A DNA stretch of 33,766 bases, taken from contig JAQTPK010000003.1 in assembly GCA_028712885.1 (NCBI GenBank), positions 75,129 through 108,894 of the forward strand. Reading direction: 5' to 3'. The translations under genes were made by a program, and so were the position numbers. This DNA comes from Syntrophales bacterium. GTDB taxonomy: Bacteria > Desulfobacterota > Syntrophia > Syntrophales > UBA4778. The notes under the pieces were generated by a model, which did no database searches, had not been told where the DNA came from, and saw nothing but the letters and a program-made list of their open reading frames with translations. Shown here piece after piece: positions 4,805 to 30,854 of this stretch (its first letter is position 1; each line of letters begins with the position of its first letter).

Positions 4805-5485
4805 ATGTTGAAAGTGAATCGAATCAAGAACATCCGGGCCAAATTTCTTATTGCGGCGATATCCGGCCTGATCGCGGTGGTGTCGCTTGTCCTGGTCTCG
4901 GACGCGATTCATTTTGAAAGGAATTATAAAAAAGCCCTGACGGACAGGTCTCTGACGATCGCCCGGGGCATCAGCTCGGCTGTTGCGAATATCGACTCTT
5001 TTCCGCCCGGTTCGCGAGAGCAAGTGAACAGGATGGTAAAAGAGATCCTGGACAACAACCTGGGAGTGTCTTATTCATACATAACGGACCGGAACGGGCG
5101 GATGGTTTATCATACAGGGCTTCCGCCAAGTGCAGTATCCGCGGACGCCGGTCCCGCCGTCGAAAGGAAAATGCGGGAAGGCGAGTGCCTGACGCGACAG
5201 GCAGGCGATGAGTATTATGAGTCGATCGTTCCTATCCGCGGCAAAAAAGGCCTCGTCGGTTTTGCGCACGTCGGCATTGAGAAAAATCTCATCGATTCCC
5301 AGATACGGAATATGGCTTTTCAGGGAGGGCTGATTCTGGCCCTTTCGGCCGTTATCACGGCCTGTCTGCTTAACACTCTTTTTCGCCGTCTGGTTAAGGA
5401 GCCGGCCCATACAGCGGCGGCCGGTTCGAGCATGACGAACCAGTGGAGCCCGGGCAAAAAAGCCGGGGAGAAGGCCGGTTTATGA
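4805..5485 (+). CDS. Membrane sensor protein without an output domain (Cache-like)
   Basis: The 226-residue protein has one transmembrane helix at about 11-33, a periplasmic domain of about 135 residues, and a second helix at about 171-193 (GGLILALSAVITACLLNTLF). It then stops after some 30 cytoplasmic residues. The periplasmic part, with segments such as YSYITDRNGRMVYH and YYESIVPIRGKKGLVGFAHVGI, resembles single-Cache/PAS-like sensor domains. Such domains are normally followed by HAMP plus a kinase or GGDEF domain; both are missing here. Its stop codon overlaps the start of the next gene (ATGA at 5482-5485), so the two are translationally coupled and probably act together. The start at 4805 is chosen because it directly precedes the first helix. 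Confidence 0.7.
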   Translation: MLKVNRIKNIRAKFLIAAISGLIAVVSLVLVSDAIHFERNYKKALTDRSLTIARGISSAVANIDSFPPGSREQVNRMVKEILDNNLGVSYSYITDRNGRMVYHTGLPPSAVSADAGPAVERKMREGECLTRQAGDEYYESIVPIRGKKGLVGFAHVGIEKNLIDSQIRNMAFQGGLILALSAVITACLLNTLFRRLVKEPAHTAAAGSSMTNQWSPGKKAGEKAGL

Positions 5486-7752
5486 TTCCGAATTCCCCGA
5501 CCTCTCTGAATGTGCTCATTGTTGAGGAAAGCCCCTCCGATACGGAGCGGATTTTGCTCGAGTTGCACAAAACCGGCTATGAGGTCAAGTCCGCCGCGGT
5601 GAATTGCGAAAAGGACTTCATCGCCGCCATTGAAAACGGGGTCGATCTGATCCTGTCAGAGTATTCCCTTCCGCGCTTCGGCGCGCTCCAGGCCCTTCAG
5701 ATTCTCCACAAACGCGATCTCGACATCCCCGTCATAATCGTTTCGGAAGCGATCGGATACGAGCAGGCGTCGGAGTGCATGAAAATGGGCGCATCCGATT
5801 ATCTCATCAAAAACCGGCTGATCAGGCTGGGACCGGCCGTAAATCAGGCCATCCGGCAGAAAATGCACCGGCAGGAACAGAAGAGCAACGAAAAGAGAAT
5901 ACGGCATCTGAACCAGGTCCTTCGCGCCGTTCTCAAGGTGAACGAGCTGATCGTCAAGGACCGCAATCCGCACCGGCTTTTTTCGCAGGTATGCGAGACG
6001 CTCCACAAGATGCGGGCCTACCGGCTGGTCTGGATCGGCCTGATAGAAGGAAACCTGGTGGCGCCTTTCGCAAGCGCGGGGGACTGCGTCGATTATCTGG
6101 ATGAAATCGAAATCGCATGGAGCGATTCGAAAGAGGGAAGCGAACCCACCGGCATCGCCCTCCGGACGAGAATGCCGGCGGTATGCCAGGATATCGAAAA
6201 AGTGGAGTCCACCGGCTCCTGGAGAAATGAAGCCCTTCTGCGGCGGATCGCTTCAGCCGCATCGATTCCCCTCATTCACGACAGCACCCTTTACGGCGCG
6301 CTGAACGTCTGCGCTGACCGCGTCCAGGCTTTCGACTCGGAGGAACTCGAGTTGCTTCACGGCATGGCCGAAAATCTTGCCTTCGCCCTCAGCGGAGTAC
6401 AGGAAGAATTCAGGCGCAGGCAGGCCGAAGACCTTTACCGGACTATTGCCGACAGCTCGCATGCGGGCGTTTACGTCGTACAGGACGGGAAATTCCTCTT
6501 CCTTAACAACAACGTGGCTTCTTATTCAGGCTGGCCGAGGGAAGAAATGATCGGCATGGAGCCGGCATCGATGATTCACGAGGAGGACCGCGAATCCGCC
6601 CGCGCCAGCGCGATCCGGATGCTCAAGGGCGAAAGGACGGCTCCTTACGAGTTCAGGCTGATCCGGAAGGACGGAAGCATCCTGTGGATGATCGAGACGG
6701 TGACGCCGATACTTTACAACGGAAGACCTGCTATTCTCGGCAACGCCATGAACATCACCGAAAGCAGGAAAACGATGGAAGCCCTGCGGGAAAGCGAAGA
6801 AAGGTACCGCACGATCCTCGAAAACATAGAGGACGGATACTATGAAGTGGATATAAACGGGCACCTGACCTTCTTCAACGAATCGTGCAGGAAAATTTTC
6901 GGATACTCGCGCGAGGAAATGCTCGGCAAGGGCAGCATGGCCGTCTCCACAAAAGAAGCGTCAGGCGCCATGCTGGAAAGATTCCGGTCGGTTCTGGAAA
7001 CGGGAAAACCCGACCGCACCACGGGATGGGAGATTATAAGAAAAGACGGGTCAACCAGGCACATAGAGGCTTCCGTCTCCCTGATTTCCGACGAAAACGG
7101 AAAGCCGTCAGGTTTCCGGGGCATAATCCGGGACGTCACCGACAGGAAACTCGCCGAAGAAATGATCATGCGCCTCGCGTACCACGACAGTCTGACCGGA
7201 CTTCCCAACCGCGTCCTGTTTCATGACCGGCTCACCATGGCAATGGCCAGGTACAAGAGAAACAGCAAGCCGTTTGCAGTTATGATGCTGGACCTGGATA
7301 AATTCAAGGAAGTCAACGATACGCTCGGCCACTCCGTGGGAGATATGCTTCTGCAGAAAGTGGCCCAGAGGCTTACGGAGCTTTTACGAAAGACCGACAC
7401 CGTGGCCCGCATGGGCGGAGACGAATTTCTCATTCTCCTGACGGATTTCACCAGGACCGACACGGCCTCTGTCGTCGCAAGAAAAATTCTGAAACTGTTC
7501 CAGAAACCTTTCGACGTAGACGAACACCGGCTCCGGATTACCACGAGCATCGGCATAGCCGTCTACCCGGATCACGGGGACGACGCCGATACTCTTCTCA
7601 AGAACTCCGACATAGCCATGTACATCGCGAAAAAGAGCGGGATGAACCGATTCCATACCTGCTCCGGGCCAACAAACGGCGCGGTTTCAGGCGACGGGAA
7701 AGAAGCCGGGATCCCCGGGCGCAGGAGTTCGGAGTCGAGAATCCAGAGCTAA
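5482..7752 (+). CDS. Diguanylate cyclase: receiver-GAF-PAS-PAS-GGDEF
   Basis: This 756-residue soluble protein has a receiver-like domain (about 8-125), a GAF domain (about 145-305), two PAS domains (about 315-430 and 437-560) and a C-terminal GGDEF domain (about 565-725). The active-site GGDEF is intact at 645-649, and RKTD at 636-639 is a canonical inhibitory RxxD site, so it should make c-di-GMP and be product-inhibited. In the receiver the expected phospho-accepting Asp is Glu (E60 in LILSEYSLP), while K110 is kept. The ATG at 5482 overlaps the stop of the sensor gene; an ATG at 5443 would overlap that gene further and is less likely. The tail after about residue 745 comes from a heptamer array. 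The gene converges with mltA and overlaps it by 4 bp. Confidence 0.88.
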   Translation: MIPNSPTSLNVLIVEESPSDTERILLELHKTGYEVKSAAVNCEKDFIAAIENGVDLILSEYSLPRFGALQALQILHKRDLDIPVIIVSEAIGYEQASECMKMGASDYLIKNRLIRLGPAVNQAIRQKMHRQEQKSNEKRIRHLNQVLRAVLKVNELIVKDRNPHRLFSQVCETLHKMRAYRLVWIGLIEGNLVAPFASAGDCVDYLDEIEIAWSDSKEGSEPTGIALRTRMPAVCQDIEKVESTGSWRNEALLRRIASAASIPLIHDSTLYGALNVCADRVQAFDSEELELLHGMAENLAFALSGVQEEFRRRQAEDLYRTIADSSHAGVYVVQDGKFLFLNNNVASYSGWPREEMIGMEPASMIHEEDRESARASAIRMLKGERTAPYEFRLIRKDGSILWMIETVTPILYNGRPAILGNAMNITESRKTMEALRESEERYRTILENIEDGYYEVDINGHLTFFNESCRKIFGYSREEMLGKGSMAVSTKEASGAMLERFRSVLETGKPDRTTGWEIIRKDGSTRHIEASVSLISDENGKPSGFRGIIRDVTDRKLAEEMIMRLAYHDSLTGLPNRVLFHDRLTMAMARYKRNSKPFAVMMLDLDKFKEVNDTLGHSVGDMLLQKVAQRLTELLRKTDTVARMGGDEFLILLTDFTRTDTASVVARKILKLFQKPFDVDEHRLRITTSIGIAVYPDHGDDADTLLKNSDIAMYIAKKSGMNRFHTCSGPTNGAVSGDGKEAGIPGRRSSESRIQS
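7724..7751. repeat. Heptamer array at the convergent ends of the GGDEF gene and mltA
   Basis: Four 7-bp units (GGAGTTC, GGAGTCG, then two decayed) form the last codons of the plus-strand gene and abut the mltA stop. The array belongs to the AGTYCCG family. Confidence 0.65.
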
Positions 7753-22268: not shown

Positions 22269-22347
22269 TCTGCAAGGGCATACCGTCCGGACGGATGGGA
22301 GACCGAAGGCCTAAATCTGTTATGGGCGATTCGGTTGCCGGGCCGAC
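22269..22347 (+). promoter_or_regulatory. Probable GEMM (c-di-GMP-I type) riboswitch aptamer
   Basis: The leader contains AAGGGCATA followed by a 6-bp stem CCGTCC/GGATGG (22283-22288 with 22293-22298) with tetraloop GGAC. Next come GAGACCGAAGGCCTAAA and a 3' part TTATGGGCGATTCGGTTGCC. The order matches the GEMM-I consensus: GGGCAAA, P1b stem with tetraloop, GACGCAAAGCC, CCUAAA, then AUG...GGGUUGCC. The linker between GACC and CCTAAA is shorter than in the best-known examples. The gene downstream is secreted, a common target type. Ligand class (c-di-GMP or cGAMP) is not decided. Confidence 0.6.
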
Positions 22348-22376
22348 ATGCGTATTCGCAATGCCGGACGGCCCGG
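22338..22376 (+). promoter_or_regulatory. Expression-platform hairpin overlapping the aptamer end
   Basis: CCGGGCCG (22338-22345) and CGGCCCGG (22369-22376) form a perfect 8-bp stem whose left arm takes the last bases of the aptamer. There is no T-run, so it is not a terminator. The ribosome-binding site AAGGAGA starts 7 nt after the stem, so control of translation is more likely. Confidence 0.5.
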
Positions 22377-22399
22377 AAATTACAAGGAGAGGTGTACAT

Positions 22400-23101
22400 A
22401 TGCCGAAGAAAAGGAAGTTCCCCTGTGGGGGCTTTACCGCCATCCTGTTTCAGGCGGTTCTCATTGTCTGTCTCGCGTTTCCAGTCTATTCAGCAGATGT
22501 CCAGCTTGAATGGGACGCCAACTCGGAACCTGCAGTCACCGGCTACAAAGTTTATTACGGGACCTCCAGTCAGAACTACTCAAGCTCGGTTGACGCGGGG
22601 AATGCGACCAATTACACTTTAACCGGCCTTGAGGAAGGGAAGCTGTATTACTTCGCCACTACGGCTTATGACTCGTCCGGAAGCGAAAGCGGATACTCCA
22701 ATGAGATCGCTTACAAGATCGGCGATCCGCCCGGCTCCGAAACCTCCACGTCATGGAGCACGGATTCCCCGGCGACTTCTTCCTCCGAAGGAGGAGGCGG
22801 CGGGTGTTTCATCGCGACCGCAGCTTACGGCAGCCGACTCGCGCCCGAAGTGGAGACGCTCAGGGATTTCCGGGATCGCCTGCTCATGACGAACCCGGCA
22901 GGGAAAGCTTTCGTCCGGCTCTACTACACCCTTTCCCCTCCCGCAGCCGAATGGATCGCGCAGCACGAGACGGCCAGAACGCTCACGCGCTGGTGCCTGT
23001 CGCCCCTGGTCTATGCAGTCAAGTATCCGGCCGCATTCGTCATAGGCTTCTTCTGTATCGGCCTGATCGCCGCCGGCAGGAAATATAAACTCTTCAGTTA
23101 A
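22400..23101 (+). CDS. Secreted fibronectin type III protein with CFI-box-CTERM domain
   Basis: The 233-residue protein starts at 22400, with AAGGAGAGG before the ATG. A signal peptide (about 1-31, ending VYSA) is followed by one fibronectin type III domain (about 33-108, [21 protein letters not shown]). A Ser/Thr and Gly linker leads to the CFI-box, [12 protein letters not shown] near residue 137. The C-terminal domain contains LRDFRDRLL and TLSPPAAEW, followed by a transmembrane helix (about 207-226) and a basic end. This layout suggests an anchored surface protein. A riboswitch precedes it and a terminator follows, so it is a self-contained unit. Confidence 0.85.
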
Positions 23102-26487: not shown

Positions 26488-27291
26488 ATGCGGCGATTGC
26501 TCATGCTGTTTACGGAACCGTTTGCATTTTTAGGCAGAGGGACCATCCAGTATGTCGGCAGCATGGGCGCCTCAGCGATTTTTCTGGTGCTGGCGCTCCT
26601 GAAGGCCTTCCGGAAGAAACAGCTGCCCAAAATCGTACAGCAGCTTTATTACATAGGTGCGCGTTCCACGCTTATCATTCTCCTGGTCGGGCTCTTCACC
26701 GGGATGGTCCTCGGCCTCCAGTCTTATCACGCGCTGGTCCAATTCGGCGCACAGGGGGCGCTGGGGACCCTCGTCGCTCTTTCCCTGGTCAGGGAACTCG
26801 GACCGGTTCTCACCGCAATAATGATTACGGCAAGGGCCGGCTCGGCGACAACCGCCGAGATCGGGAGCCTTCGCATCTCCGAGCAGATAGACGCGCTGGA
26901 TACAATGCGCGTGGACCCCCTCCGGTACCTGATCAGCCCGAGGATAACCGCATCGATCATCAGCTTTCCCCTGCTCACGGCTGTTTTCGACATCATAGGT
27001 ATTCTGGGCGGCTACATATCCGGAGTGCTGCTCCTTGGGGCCAATGCCGGAACCTATCTGTACCGCGTTCAGGCCAGCGTGGAAATGAAGGACATTACGG
27101 ACGGCTTTATCAAGGCAATTGTCTTCGCCGTGATCGTCTCCACCGTATGCTGTTTCGAGGGTTATTTTACCCATATGAGAACGGACAGCCACGGTGCAAA
27201 GGCCGTAGGGCTCTCGACGACCTCGGCGGTTGTGCTGTCGTGCGTACTCATCCTGATCGCGGATTACGTGGTCACTTCGATTCTTATTTAA
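26488..27291 (+). CDS. mlaE: Phospholipid ABC transporter permease MlaE
   Basis: MlaE is the permease of the inner-membrane complex that moves phospholipids between the membranes to keep outer-membrane asymmetry. The 267-residue protein has the family's typical length, several hydrophobic helices and the conserved cytoplasmic segment LVRELGPVLTAIMITARAGS followed by EIGSLRISEQIDALDTM. The start at 26488 (MRRLLMLF) is chosen from protein length and an AGGCGG site; an ATG at 26446 is possible, and the open frame runs back to 26281 without resembling MlaE. There is no fused STAS domain. It heads the mlaEFDCA operon. Confidence 0.93.
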   Translation: MRRLLMLFTEPFAFLGRGTIQYVGSMGASAIFLVLALLKAFRKKQLPKIVQQLYYIGARSTLIILLVGLFTGMVLGLQSYHALVQFGAQGALGTLVALSLVRELGPVLTAIMITARAGSATTAEIGSLRISEQIDALDTMRVDPLRYLISPRITASIISFPLLTAVFDIIGILGGYISGVLLLGANAGTYLYRVQASVEMKDITDGFIKAIVFAVIVSTVCCFEGYFTHMRTDSHGAKAVGLSTTSAVVLSCVLILIADYVVTSILI

Positions 27292-27391: not shown

Positions 27392-28639
27392 ATGGAACCC
27401 TTCCCGTTAATAGAGTTTAAAAACGTAACGAAGCGATTCGATGGCCGTACGGTCCTGGACAACGTCAACCTCCGGATATACGAGGGCCAGATCACCACCA
27501 TTATCGGTTTGAGCGGCGCGGGCAAGAGCGTTCTGCTCAAGCATATCATCGGGCTGATCCAGCCGGATGAAGGAACGGTCTGCCTGCGGGGGAAGCCGCT
27601 CTCAGGGGTGCGCAAAAAAGAGATTGCCGACACAGTCAAGCAGATGAGCTACATGTTCCAGGGCAACGCCCTTTTCGATTCCATGACCGTCTATGAGAAT
27701 ATCGCGCTCCCTCTCCAGGAGACGACCGACCTGAGCAGGGAGGAAATCGACCGCCGCGTCCGGACCCGGATAGAACAGACGGAGCTCGGCGACTCCGCGG
27801 ACAAGTTCCCTTCCGAGCTGTCGGGAGGAATGCAGAAGAGGGCGGCGCTGGCCCGCGCCCTGGTAACCGACCCCAGGATCGTCCTCTTCGACGAACCCAC
27901 GTCCGGCCAGGACCCGGTGCGCAAGAACGCTATTCTCAGCATGATCGCCCAGTACCAGAGAAGATTCGGCTTTACGGCGATCCTCGTCAGCCACGAAATC
28001 CCCGACGTGTATTTCATCTCCAACCGCATCCTGGCTCTTTACGACCGCACGATAGTCTTCCAGGGCGCGCCGGAGGACCTGGAAAAATTCGATCATCCCT
28101 TTATGGATGAAGTCATTCACAGTCTGGAGGGCCTGCAGGAAGAGCTGACGGGCCTTCATTCCCGCCGGCAGTTCAAAGTCCTCTATCAAAGCCAGATGAA
28201 GCGCAAGGCGCTGGACCAGTTTTACGTGCTGGTCGTTTTCACCCTGGAGGGACTGGATGCCATAGCATCGGGAATGGGGCACGAAGCGGCGCAGGAAGCA
28301 ATACGGTGCATGGGGCTGGCCATAGAAAAGCATTTCGGCCCCATCGGAGGGGTATCCACGCGCCTCGGAATCAACGAGTTCATAACCATGCTCCCCTATT
28401 CCGATATGGCGGAAGCGGAGGCTATTCTGAACAACTTTGCGGCCGATATTCAGAGGGAGGACATCGTGAACATATTGAACGGCGCCCGGAGGCGCGGGGG
28501 CGAAGGACAGTGCGTTGAAATAGGAATAAAGGCGGGACTGGCCCAGGGGCGGCCGACAGTGGAGGTCGGCCCCGTCATGAATGCGGCGGTGGAACAACAG
28601 AAGGAAATCGCCCGGCTCCGCTGCATCCCCGACTGGTGA
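27392..28639 (+). CDS. mlaF: MlaF ATPase fused to a degenerate GGDEF-like domain
   Basis: Residues 1-262 are a standard MlaF ATPase: Walker A GLSGAGKS (39-46), Q-loop Q90, signature LSGGM (143-147), Walker B VLFDEPT (164-170) and H-loop H201. MlaF proteins normally end near here. This one continues to 415 residues. The extension aligns by eye to a GGDEF domain: FYVLVVFTLEGLDAIASGMGH resembles the FxxxNDxxGH region, RLGINEFITMLPYSD resembles RxGGDEFxxxLP (GINEF at 326-330 for GGDEF), and VEIGIKAGLA resembles the SIG strand. Key catalytic residues are lost, so a cyclase is unlikely; a sensor or scaffold role is inferred. Start at 27392 (MEPFPLIEF). The mlaF stop lies 11 bp before the mlaD start. 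Confidence 0.92.
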   Translation: MEPFPLIEFKNVTKRFDGRTVLDNVNLRIYEGQITTIIGLSGAGKSVLLKHIIGLIQPDEGTVCLRGKPLSGVRKKEIADTVKQMSYMFQGNALFDSMTVYENIALPLQETTDLSREEIDRRVRTRIEQTELGDSADKFPSELSGGMQKRAALARALVTDPRIVLFDEPTSGQDPVRKNAILSMIAQYQRRFGFTAILVSHEIPDVYFISNRILALYDRTIVFQGAPEDLEKFDHPFMDEVIHSLEGLQEELTGLHSRRQFKVLYQSQMKRKALDQFYVLVVFTLEGLDAIASGMGHEAAQEAIRCMGLAIEKHFGPIGGVSTRLGINEFITMLPYSDMAEAEAILNNFAADIQREDIVNILNGARRRGGEGQCVEIGIKAGLAQGRPTVEVGPVMNAAVEQQKEIARLRCIPDW

Positions 28640-28650
28640 AGGAGTGGGCA

Positions 28651-29133
28651 ATGAAGAGATATGCAATGGAGACTTCGGTCGGCATTTTCGTGGTTTTCGG
28701 ATTGCTGTGCATCGGGTACCTGACCCTGAAGCTCGGCGATATTTCCCTCCCGGGCAACAATACTTACCGCCTCTTTGCCCGCTTCACTTCGGTCAGCGGC
28801 CTGAGGACGGGAAGTCCCGTGAATATCCTCGGGATCGAGGTCGGACGGGTGGAAAAACTCACGATGGACCAGGCAGAGCAGAGGGCCGTCGTGGAGATCA
28901 GCGTCAGAAAGGACATCAGGATCTACGACGACGCGCTCGCTTCGATCAGGACGGAAGGGCTGATCGGGGACAGGTATCTGAATATAGATCCCGGAGGGTC
29001 GGGCGAAGTTCTCCCGGCCGGCGGAACGATTGTCGAGACGCAGCCCGCCGTTGAGATATCGGACCTTATCGGCAGGTACGCTTTCGGCGAAATCAGGCAA
29101 GAGAACGGGAAAGAGACTGCCGATGAAAAATAG
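28651..29133 (+). CDS. mlaD: Phospholipid-binding MCE-domain protein MlaD
   Basis: The 160-residue protein has an N-terminal transmembrane helix (about 9-26, VGIFVVFGLLCIGYLTLKLG) and one MCE domain (about 35-115) with FTSVSGLRTGSPVNILGIEVG and TEGLIGDRYLNIDPGG. MlaD forms a hexameric ring on the periplasmic side of MlaFE and passes lipids to MlaC. The start at 28651 has an AAGGAG site; a GTG at 28636 is less likely. Its end overlaps mlaC by 11 bp. The C-terminal tail (GEIRQENGKETADEK) is short and polar. Confidence 0.93.
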   Translation: MKRYAMETSVGIFVVFGLLCIGYLTLKLGDISLPGNNTYRLFARFTSVSGLRTGSPVNILGIEVGRVEKLTMDQAEQRAVVEISVRKDIRIYDDALASIRTEGLIGDRYLNIDPGGSGEVLPAGGTIVETQPAVEISDLIGRYAFGEIRQENGKETADEK

Positions 29134-29719
29134 ACTGCTCCTCCTGTTGATACTTGTGTGCGTGACGGCTCCGCTTCCGGCATATGCGGGGCCGCCGACG
29201 GAAGCCGTGCGGGCGAATGTCGACAAGGTCCTGAACGTCCTGCGCGACCCGGCGCTGAAACCCGAATCGGCCAGGGAAAAGAAAAAGAAGAGGCTTGAGG
29301 CCATTTACGAAGTGATGTTCGATGAGATCGAACTCTCCCGGCGCACACTGGGCCTGAACTGGAACAAATTGACGCCCGATCAGCGAAGGGAATTCGTCCA
29401 CCTCTACAGGCAGGTCCTCGAGAACGCCTATATTGATAAAATTCTCTCTTACACCAACGAAAAAATCGTCTTCACAAGGGAAATAAAGATTTCGGAAAAC
29501 CAGGCGGAAGTGCAGACAAGAATTATAACTTCGTCCCGGGAGGTCCCGATATCATACAGGGTCATCCGGAAGGATGGCGCCTGGAGGGTATACGACGTTA
29601 TCGTCGAGAATGTAAGTCTCGTGCGAAACTACCGCAGCCAGTTCAACCAGATCCTGTCGAAAAACACGCCGCCTCAACTGATTGAAATACTCCGGAAGAG
29701 GGTGAAGCAGATAAAATAA
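29123..29719 (+). CDS. mlaC: Periplasmic phospholipid carrier MlaC
   Basis: MlaC ferries phospholipid between the outer-membrane MlaA complex and the inner-membrane MlaFED complex. The 198-residue protein has a signal peptide (about 1-22, ending AYA) and the Tol_Tol_Ttg2 domain: EAIYEVMFDEIELSRRTLG, LTPDQRREFVHLYRQVLE and VISYR-like strand SYRVIRKDGAWRVYDVIVE are characteristic. It starts at 29123 inside the mlaD end. After the stop come two 8-bp units (GAGGGTCC, GAGGGTCA) in the gap before mlaA. Confidence 0.93.
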   Translation: MKNRLLLLLILVCVTAPLPAYAGPPTEAVRANVDKVLNVLRDPALKPESAREKKKKRLEAIYEVMFDEIELSRRTLGLNWNKLTPDQRREFVHLYRQVLENAYIDKILSYTNEKIVFTREIKISENQAEVQTRIITSSREVPISYRVIRKDGAWRVYDVIVENVSLVRNYRSQFNQILSKNTPPQLIEILRKRVKQIK

Positions 29720-29774: not shown

Positions 29775-30854
29775 ATGAAGGCTTCGGTTTATATCATCTT
29801 TGCCTTGCTTTTCCTCGGCTGCGCGCATGGAAATCAGGCTGTTGTTGCCGACGGCCCGGGAGCGGAATGGAATCCTCCCGTCTTTCTCACTGCCGCGGGG
29901 GTCGCCCCCAGCGCCTTTGAATCATTACTGAGACCCGGAGTTCTGCATTCGGAAAAGGATTCCGGCAAAGAGCAGGCGGAAACCGGGGATGAATATCTCG
30001 AGGACGTTCCCGCGGGGGATGACGAGTACGCGGAGGAATTCAAGGGTGAAGAAGAAGAGGAGATAACGATCGCCGACCCGCTGGAACCGCTCAATCGGGC
30101 GATGTTCCACTTCAACGACCGGCTTTATTTCTGGGTCCTCAAGCCCGTTGCGGAGGGCTACAACAAGGTTGTTCCCGAGGATGCGAGGATCAGCGTGAGG
30201 AACTTCTTCTCCAACCTCGCTTATCCGATCCGTCTCGCCAGCTGCCTTCTCCAGGCGGATTTCCGCGGCGCGGCGACCGAAACCGGACGCTTCGTCGTAA
30301 ACACGGTTTGGGGAATAGGCGGCCTGCTCGATCCGGCATCCGGCAAGGACCTGGACCTGAAAATGCAGAACGTGGACCTGGGGCAGACCCTCGGAACATA
30401 TGGAGTGGGACACGGCGTCTACATCGTCTGGCCCTTCATCGGGCCGTCCAGCCCCAGGGATTCAGTCGATATCGTTGGAGGATATTTCCTTTATCCCGTT
30501 TACTACCTTGAACCCTGGTACGCTGCATGGGGCGCGAGAGCATACGAATCCGTCAACGACACCTCTTTGAGGATAGGCGATTATGAATCCCTGAAAGAAG
30601 CGGCGATAGACCCATACATTGCGTTGCGCAACGCGTATGCCCAGTACCGGCGGAAGCTGGTCGAATCCCGGGGCAAAACCGATGAACCGCCGCCCGGCGG
30701 GGTAAGGGCGGGCGCGGAAGGAATCATAAATCCGGGCATGCCCGCGCCCCGGAGAATGCAAATATCATGGGAGCTCGCGCCGGAGGCGGAGGTCAACAGA
30801 GTCGCACGAATGCCCGCCAGCGATACCGCCTCAGGCAAGGAGAAACGGCCATGA
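29775..30854 (+). CDS. mlaA: Outer-membrane lipoprotein MlaA (VacJ) with acidic N-terminal extension
   Basis: MlaA sits in the outer membrane and removes misplaced phospholipids from the outer leaflet. The 359-residue protein has a lipoprotein signal with lipobox LFLGC (C16), an acidic, disordered-looking stretch (about 60-100, rich in Glu and Asp) and the MlaA domain (about 101-297). That domain starts DPLEPLNRAMFHFND and contains RFVVNTVWGIGGLLDPAS. It is about 100 residues longer than E. coli MlaA, through the N-terminal linker and a C-terminal tail of about 60 residues. A GGAAGG site precedes the ATG. The stop overlaps the next start (ATGA). Confidence 0.92.
   Translation: MKASVYIIFALLFLGCAHGNQAVVADGPGAEWNPPVFLTAAGVAPSAFESLLRPGVLHSEKDSGKEQAETGDEYLEDVPAGDDEYAEEFKGEEEEEITIADPLEPLNRAMFHFNDRLYFWVLKPVAEGYNKVVPEDARISVRNFFSNLAYPIRLASCLLQADFRGAATETGRFVVNTVWGIGGLLDPASGKDLDLKMQNVDLGQTLGTYGVGHGVYIVWPFIGPSSPRDSVDIVGGYFLYPVYYLEPWYAAWGARAYESVNDTSLRIGDYESLKEAAIDPYIALRNAYAQYRRKLVESRGKTDEPPPGGVRAGAEGIINPGMPAPRRMQISWELAPEAEVNRVARMPASDTASGKEKRP

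Follow-up and report, generated by a model that had tools for sequence, protein, structure and literature searches.

A catalytically dead GGDEF domain fused to the lipid transport ATPase MlaF in a lineage of Desulfobacterota

In a Syntrophales bacterium, the C-terminal part of MlaF, the ATPase of an E. coli-type Mla phospholipid transporter, is a true but catalytically dead GGDEF domain. It is located exactly where the tail of E. coli MlaF begins. The fusion arose a single time among the ancestors of this Desulfobacterota lineage, and the added domain is under purifying selection, though it evolves faster than the ATPase. Our explanation as a whole, which we hold with moderate confidence, is that the once-gained, dead GGDEF domain acts as a dimer-stabilising regulatory module, with c-di-GMP as the signal in the older of two subfamilies.

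The window, i.e. the whole stretch of 33,766 nucleotides that was analysed, contains an mla operon with the gene order mlaE-F-D-C-A:

26488–27291, forward strand: mlaE, permease of about 267 residues (PF02405, 257 bits) with no STAS fusion; start inferred from sequence
27392–28639, forward strand: mlaF fused to the pseudo-GGDEF domain; 415 residues, ATG at 27392, stop codon ending at 28639
28651–29133, forward strand: mlaD, short MCE protein of 160 residues, an open reading frame whose counterparts in related loci are homologous to E. coli MlaD
29123–29719, forward strand: mlaC, periplasmic lipid chaperone (PF05494, E 9.6e-47 in the window's genome)
29775–30854, forward strand: presumably mlaA, outer-membrane lipoprotein of the VacJ type, the conserved next gene in most homologous loci; family assigned from sequence

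The order mlaE-F-D-C-(A) was preserved in about 60 loci inspected. As originally predicted, MlaF has 415 residues including a C-terminal extension, the operon contains no mlaB, and MlaE carries no STAS domain.

Within MlaF, two domains and four motif regions of the second domain were delimited:

27392–28132, forward strand: ABC ATPase domain, residues 1–247 (Pfam ABC_tran, E 3.7e-35)
about 28136–28636, forward strand: degenerate GGDEF domain, residues about 249 to 410/415 (PF00990, PDB profile, AlphaFold)
28139–28174, forward strand: EELTGLHSRRQF, residues 250–261, counterpart of the GGDEF opening motif DxLTGLxNRRxF by alignment with the window's intact cyclase
28244–28297, forward strand: TLEGLDAIASGMGHEAAQ region, counterpart of DxDxFKxxNDxxGHxxGD, with D327 to T, N335 to A and D344 to Q (PleD numbering)
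28346–28366, forward strand: GGVSTRL, rebuilt I-site loop that exceeds the cyclase loop by one residue and has no RxxD
28367–28381, forward strand: GINEF in place of GG[DE]EF, residues 326–330

The ABC_tran match covers residues 22–171, and the ATPase motifs are intact (Walker A GLSGAGKS, the LSGGM signature, Walker B FDEP and the switch residue His201) and form invariant alignment columns across 59 homologues. With these motifs, including the Met in LSGGM, and with MlaE, MlaD and MlaC encoded in the same operon, the protein is an MlaF-type ATPase in the broad sense; the NCBIfam model of E. coli-type MlaF (NF008809) was its best match, though at 186.8 bits it missed the equivalog cut-off of 441 bits. 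The ATPase part of the full-length model superimposed on E. coli MlaF (6xbd_I) with a Z score of 28.8 and an rmsd of 2.4 over 243 residues.

Three lines of evidence identified the extension as a GGDEF domain. Pfam matched PF00990 to residues 251–354 with 32.7 bits (E 7.6e-8; gathering cut-off 23.8 bits), the extension alone (residue 240 onward) scored 34.9 bits (E 1.6e-8), and 69 of 72 homologous domains were recognised individually at E 0.01, the best at E 6e-25. A profile built from these 72 domains matched 52 sequences in the PDB, nearly all of them named GGDEF or diguanylate cyclase (best E 3e-17). Since the ATPase fills the match list, a fold search with the full-length model returned only ABC matches, and the domain was therefore folded alone. 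The isolated model (AlphaFold pLDDT 82) had the strand and helix order of GGDEF domains and retrieved GGDEF structures, among them PleD (2wb4; Z 16.5, rmsd 2.9, 158 residues). In the full-length model the linker, residues 241–270, had a pLDDT of about 58–68, and it is accordingly uncertain how the domain sits relative to the ATPase. Chance resemblance and another palm fold were rejected on the strength of the PDB profile, PF00990 and fold-search matches. The original prediction of a degenerate GGDEF domain, for which structure prediction had been proposed as a check capable of disproving the fold, was thus confirmed, as were GINEF at residues 326–330 and GMGH at residues 294–297. Its start at 28184 was placed too late; the opening motif at residues 250–261 (from about nucleotide 28139) moves it to about 28136.

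To compare the functional sites, we used as reference the intact cyclase of the same window and PleD numbering. The window protein lacks all features of an active diguanylate cyclase that were considered: GG[DE]EF, the Mg ligand D327 and the guanine ligands N335 and D344. It likewise has neither RxxD nor a basic residue at the position of PleD R390, the features of an I-site receptor; the RxxD position reads GxxG, with one residue inserted. As substitutions affect the metal, guanine and I-site residues alike, binding of c-di-GMP or GTP through the known GGDEF sites is unlikely in this protein, as judged from its residues. A link to one of these nucleotides had been part of the original prediction; it is thereby weakened for the window protein and plausible for an older grade of relatives that keeps the I-site (see below). 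Across the family, D327 is T, S or A in most members, and none of 165 members has GG[DE]EF; a search of these 165 for an intact GGDEF ancestor within the fused family was likewise negative. Arg324 (PleD R366) was kept in 72 of 72 and in 163 of 165 homologues.

The window itself encodes an intact GGDEF domain in a response-regulator/GAF/PAS-type protein (5443–7752, forward strand; MGGDEF, 188 bits). Besides MlaF, the genome has about eight GGDEF matches above cut-off, of which this is one. Further Mla-like genes occur in the same genome: a second system, in which MlaE bears an N-terminally fused STAS domain and MlaF is short (L003, G000:C18:23329-25143), another MlaE-MlaF-MlaD locus on contig C63 (L002, L155), and an MlaE-MlaF pair on contig C12 (L004). 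At 22295–23101 on the forward strand, the window encodes a protein with a fibronectin-like stretch and, at its C-terminus, a box of 13 letters and then a transmembrane end, resembling a sorting-type tail.

The fusion is widespread among Desulfobacterota genomes, to which our census was confined. In a pattern search limited to one genome per species, 43 named loci showed the architecture in full or nearly so; they carried the labels Syntrophaceae, Smithella, Syntrophus, Desulfobacterales, Desulfococcus and further old 'Deltaproteobacteria' names. Fused MlaF was found in 25 of 60 relatives from the window's order (counted as strong matches) and, in one class surveyed, in about 70 of 241 genomes; in an even sample of the phylum, a full-span match occurred in at least 43 of 345 genomes from 16 families. 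The extension is thus not confined to one genome; such confinement, with mlaB found elsewhere, would have told against the original prediction. A fusion artefact or single-genome oddity was rejected because the architecture recurs across many genomes and loci. In a tree of the ATPase domain, one branch with a support of 100 split 32 fused from 56 unfused rows, placing the fusion at a single origin. Between close pairs, dN/dS was 0.12–0.44 for the domain vs 0.02–0.30 for the ATPase part; values well below 1 indicate purifying selection on the domain. Two variants of the gene arrangement were encountered: in L070 (5881–7518) and also L030, mlaF and mlaD share one frame of 546 residues (ATPase, GGDEF part, MlaD), by natural fusion or sequencing error, and in L077 (5878–7184) a frame change separates the ATPase portion of mlaF from its GGDEF portion.

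When a larger tree was rooted on unfused MlaF, two subfamilies emerged that differ at the I-site. The older grade (55 rows) retains the I-site Asp in 55 of 55 and the full RxxD in 36, whereas the I-site was lost in a single clade, supported at 100, whose 56 rows include the window. Among 165 domains, RxxD was present in 44, Asp alone in 23 and neither in 98; RxxD thus occurs in 44 of the 67 I-site-retaining members and Asp in all 67. The PleD R390 position, which provides the third contact of the I-site (compare PelD, PMC7112168), is occupied by Lys or Arg in 77% of the domains with RxxD, 78% of those with Asp alone and 5% of the others, and it is acidic in most members of the window's clade. 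Both features of an I-site receptor, RxxD and a basic residue at R390, are therefore found in the older grade. The I-site Arg changed about 12 times on the tree within this grade, so that the constraint on it is moderate rather than strict. The typical motif of the older grade is HLRITDICSRYGMNKIM, as opposed to FGAIGGFSTRxxxNEFVTVLP in the window's clade, where a new conserved GGxSxR motif stands at the former I-site and a C-terminal QKEI motif is also conserved. Seven genomes carry copies of both subfamilies (G603, G501, G609, G611, G618, G401 and G525), and in L201 two MlaF-GGDEF genes, one per subfamily, lie a few kb apart on one contig (477–1829 and 4731–6062). One family (f53; L221, L282, L283, L285 and L286) comprises fused proteins with the I-site (G261, G305), fused proteins without it (G691, G683) and an unfused protein (G344), a mixture well suited to studying how the fusion is gained and lost.

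A domain in this state might be a purely structural remnant that helps MlaF to fold or stay soluble and has no regulatory role. The loss of all catalytic residues, and in the window's clade of the I-site residues as well, would fit such a remnant, as would its faster evolution relative to the ATPase. We nevertheless consider it improbable, given that the domain has been kept phylum-wide after one origin at a dN/dS well below 1, with a near-invariant Arg324 and with the newly conserved GGxSxR and QKEI motifs.

The position of the domain suggests a different role. The structural alignment with E. coli MlaF stops at model residue 247, which corresponds to E. coli residue 248. In E. coli, a C-terminal 'handshake' extension of about 25 residues (247–269) holds the two ATPase subunits together; its deletion abolished function and left a complex without MlaF and MlaB, and fusing a GCN4 dimeriser to the C-terminus largely rescued the tail-less MlaF (PMC7367683). 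Unfused MlaF proteins of the phylum end soon past the residue-247 point, mostly with short tails, and only L222 and L228 have a full E. coli-like tail.

The original prediction held that the domain stands in for MlaB, i.e. that it occupies the MlaB-binding face and stabilises MlaF as E. coli MlaB does, which touches both MlaF and its C-terminal tail (PMC7367683). In line with this, mlaB was absent at every fused locus examined, no STAS open reading frame being detected at E 0.01 in 63 loci, and the MlaB model (NF033618) had no match at E 0.001 in the window's genome. However, at the NCBI cut-off the same model matched none of 345 genomes of the phylum, with E. coli as a positive control. As an unfused comparison set we took 40 MlaC loci from genomes without the extension; of the 35 with a recognisable mlaE-F-D, 34 had no adjoining STAS gene, the exception being L222. 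MlaB is thus missing with and without the extension, and the correlation between the two for which a survey had been proposed was not found. We concluded that absence of mlaB is the background state in the phylum and cannot account for the extension. Long-MlaD systems of the window's order (L131-L160), with a 250-residue MlaF and directly adjacent mlaE, mlaF and mlaD, agree with the view that MlaEFD forms the core and that MlaB is sparse among bacteria (PMC10665443). In addition, MlaB binds chiefly the helical subdomain, on another face than the C-terminal junction, and replacement of MlaB is, in our judgement, distinctly unlikely.

Still less credible is a c-di-GMP receptor that directly gates lipid transport in all members, the window protein included: the GGDEF fold, the c-di-GMP signalling genes of the genome, the I-site triad kept in the older subfamily and the precedent of PelD, a degenerate GGDEF receptor that needs RxxD and a third Arg (PMC7112168), speak for it, but the window protein has GxxG with its one-residue insertion for RxxD and A and Q for the guanine residues N335 and D344, and most of its clade has an acidic residue at the R390 position.

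We therefore return to the dimer-stabilising regulatory module. GGDEF-fold proteins often work as dimers, and with such a fold at the site of the E. coli tail, a dimer-stabilising module is the simplest reading. Paired pseudo-GGDEF domains beneath the two ATPase subunits would make the MlaF dimer more stable and tune its activity, and the domain would thus act as a C-terminal regulatory module comparable to those of MetN or OpuA. Because many Mla systems in the phylum function with neither the extension nor the E. coli tail nor MlaB, the role that the domain fills is not an indispensable one. For the older subfamily, the signal is probably c-di-GMP, bound at the inhibitory site that these proteins still have, and gating by c-di-GMP in these relatives is plausible from their conserved residues. 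As the I-site has been rebuilt in the window's subfamily, the domain may there be a constitutive dimer clamp or respond to another ligand or partner. The computations establish the identity of the domain, its loss of catalytic residues, its single origin, operon setting and conservation, and the two subfamilies; dimerisation, regulation and c-di-GMP as the ligand in relatives are in each case what we infer.

For E. coli, the main known points at which Mla is regulated are the tail of MlaF and MlaB. Here, a relative of signalling enzymes is joined to the motor subunit of Mla at the position of that tail, and this across a bacterial lineage; because some relatives retain the c-di-GMP-binding pocket, the fusion may wire lipid transport to cell signalling. 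We tentatively raise the possibility of a new class of second-messenger-gated lipid transporter, in which c-di-GMP would bind the I-site ATPases themselves and set outer-membrane phospholipid trafficking, the pocket of the window protein having been rebuilt for another ligand or partner. If c-di-GMP binds MlaF and alters its ATPase activity, envelope lipid asymmetry would be tied directly to the signal that governs the sessile and motile states, and genomes with one copy per subfamily would possess two differently gated Mla systems.

A search of the open-access literature found no paper in which a GGDEF domain is described on an ABC ATPase, from Mla or elsewhere; an 'MlaD' match in a screen for c-di-GMP binders of V. 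cholerae (PMC4624772) was discarded, being an author name and no protein. Among the closest known systems is MlaFEDB of E. coli (6xbd, 6xgy), whose MlaF is the same transporter-type ATPase (35% identity over 243 residues, Met in LSGGM, partners MlaE, MlaD and MlaC); it has the tail of about 25 residues and MlaB, whereas the window has a pseudo-GGDEF extension of 165 residues and no MlaB. The domain has the same fold as the active cyclases PleD, DgcR and SadC, and its motifs follow in the same order (best profile E 3e-17), but all members of the MlaF family lack GG[DE]EF, and the Mg and GTP residues are replaced in the window protein and nearly all others. PelD also has a dead active site, and RxxD and the third basic residue, both used by PelD, are still present in the older grade; PelD is, however, a membrane protein of polysaccharide synthesis, and the window's clade lacks the I-site. 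An ammonium transporter with a C-terminal GGDEF domain (8qj3, 8qpf; family-profile match E 3e-11) is likewise a transporter bearing this domain, but it is a channel-type Amt and no ABC ATPase subunit. MetN, OpuA and MalK resemble the fused MlaF in having an extra folded domain past the ATPase, which is ACT-like, CBS or TOBE, not GGDEF. Such post-ATPase domains, in MetN and others, regulate subunit association (PMC7367683). STAS-MlaE fusions, one of which is that on contig C18 of the window's genome, similarly carry a regulatory domain as part of an Mla subunit, in their case STAS on the permease as opposed to GGDEF on the ATPase.
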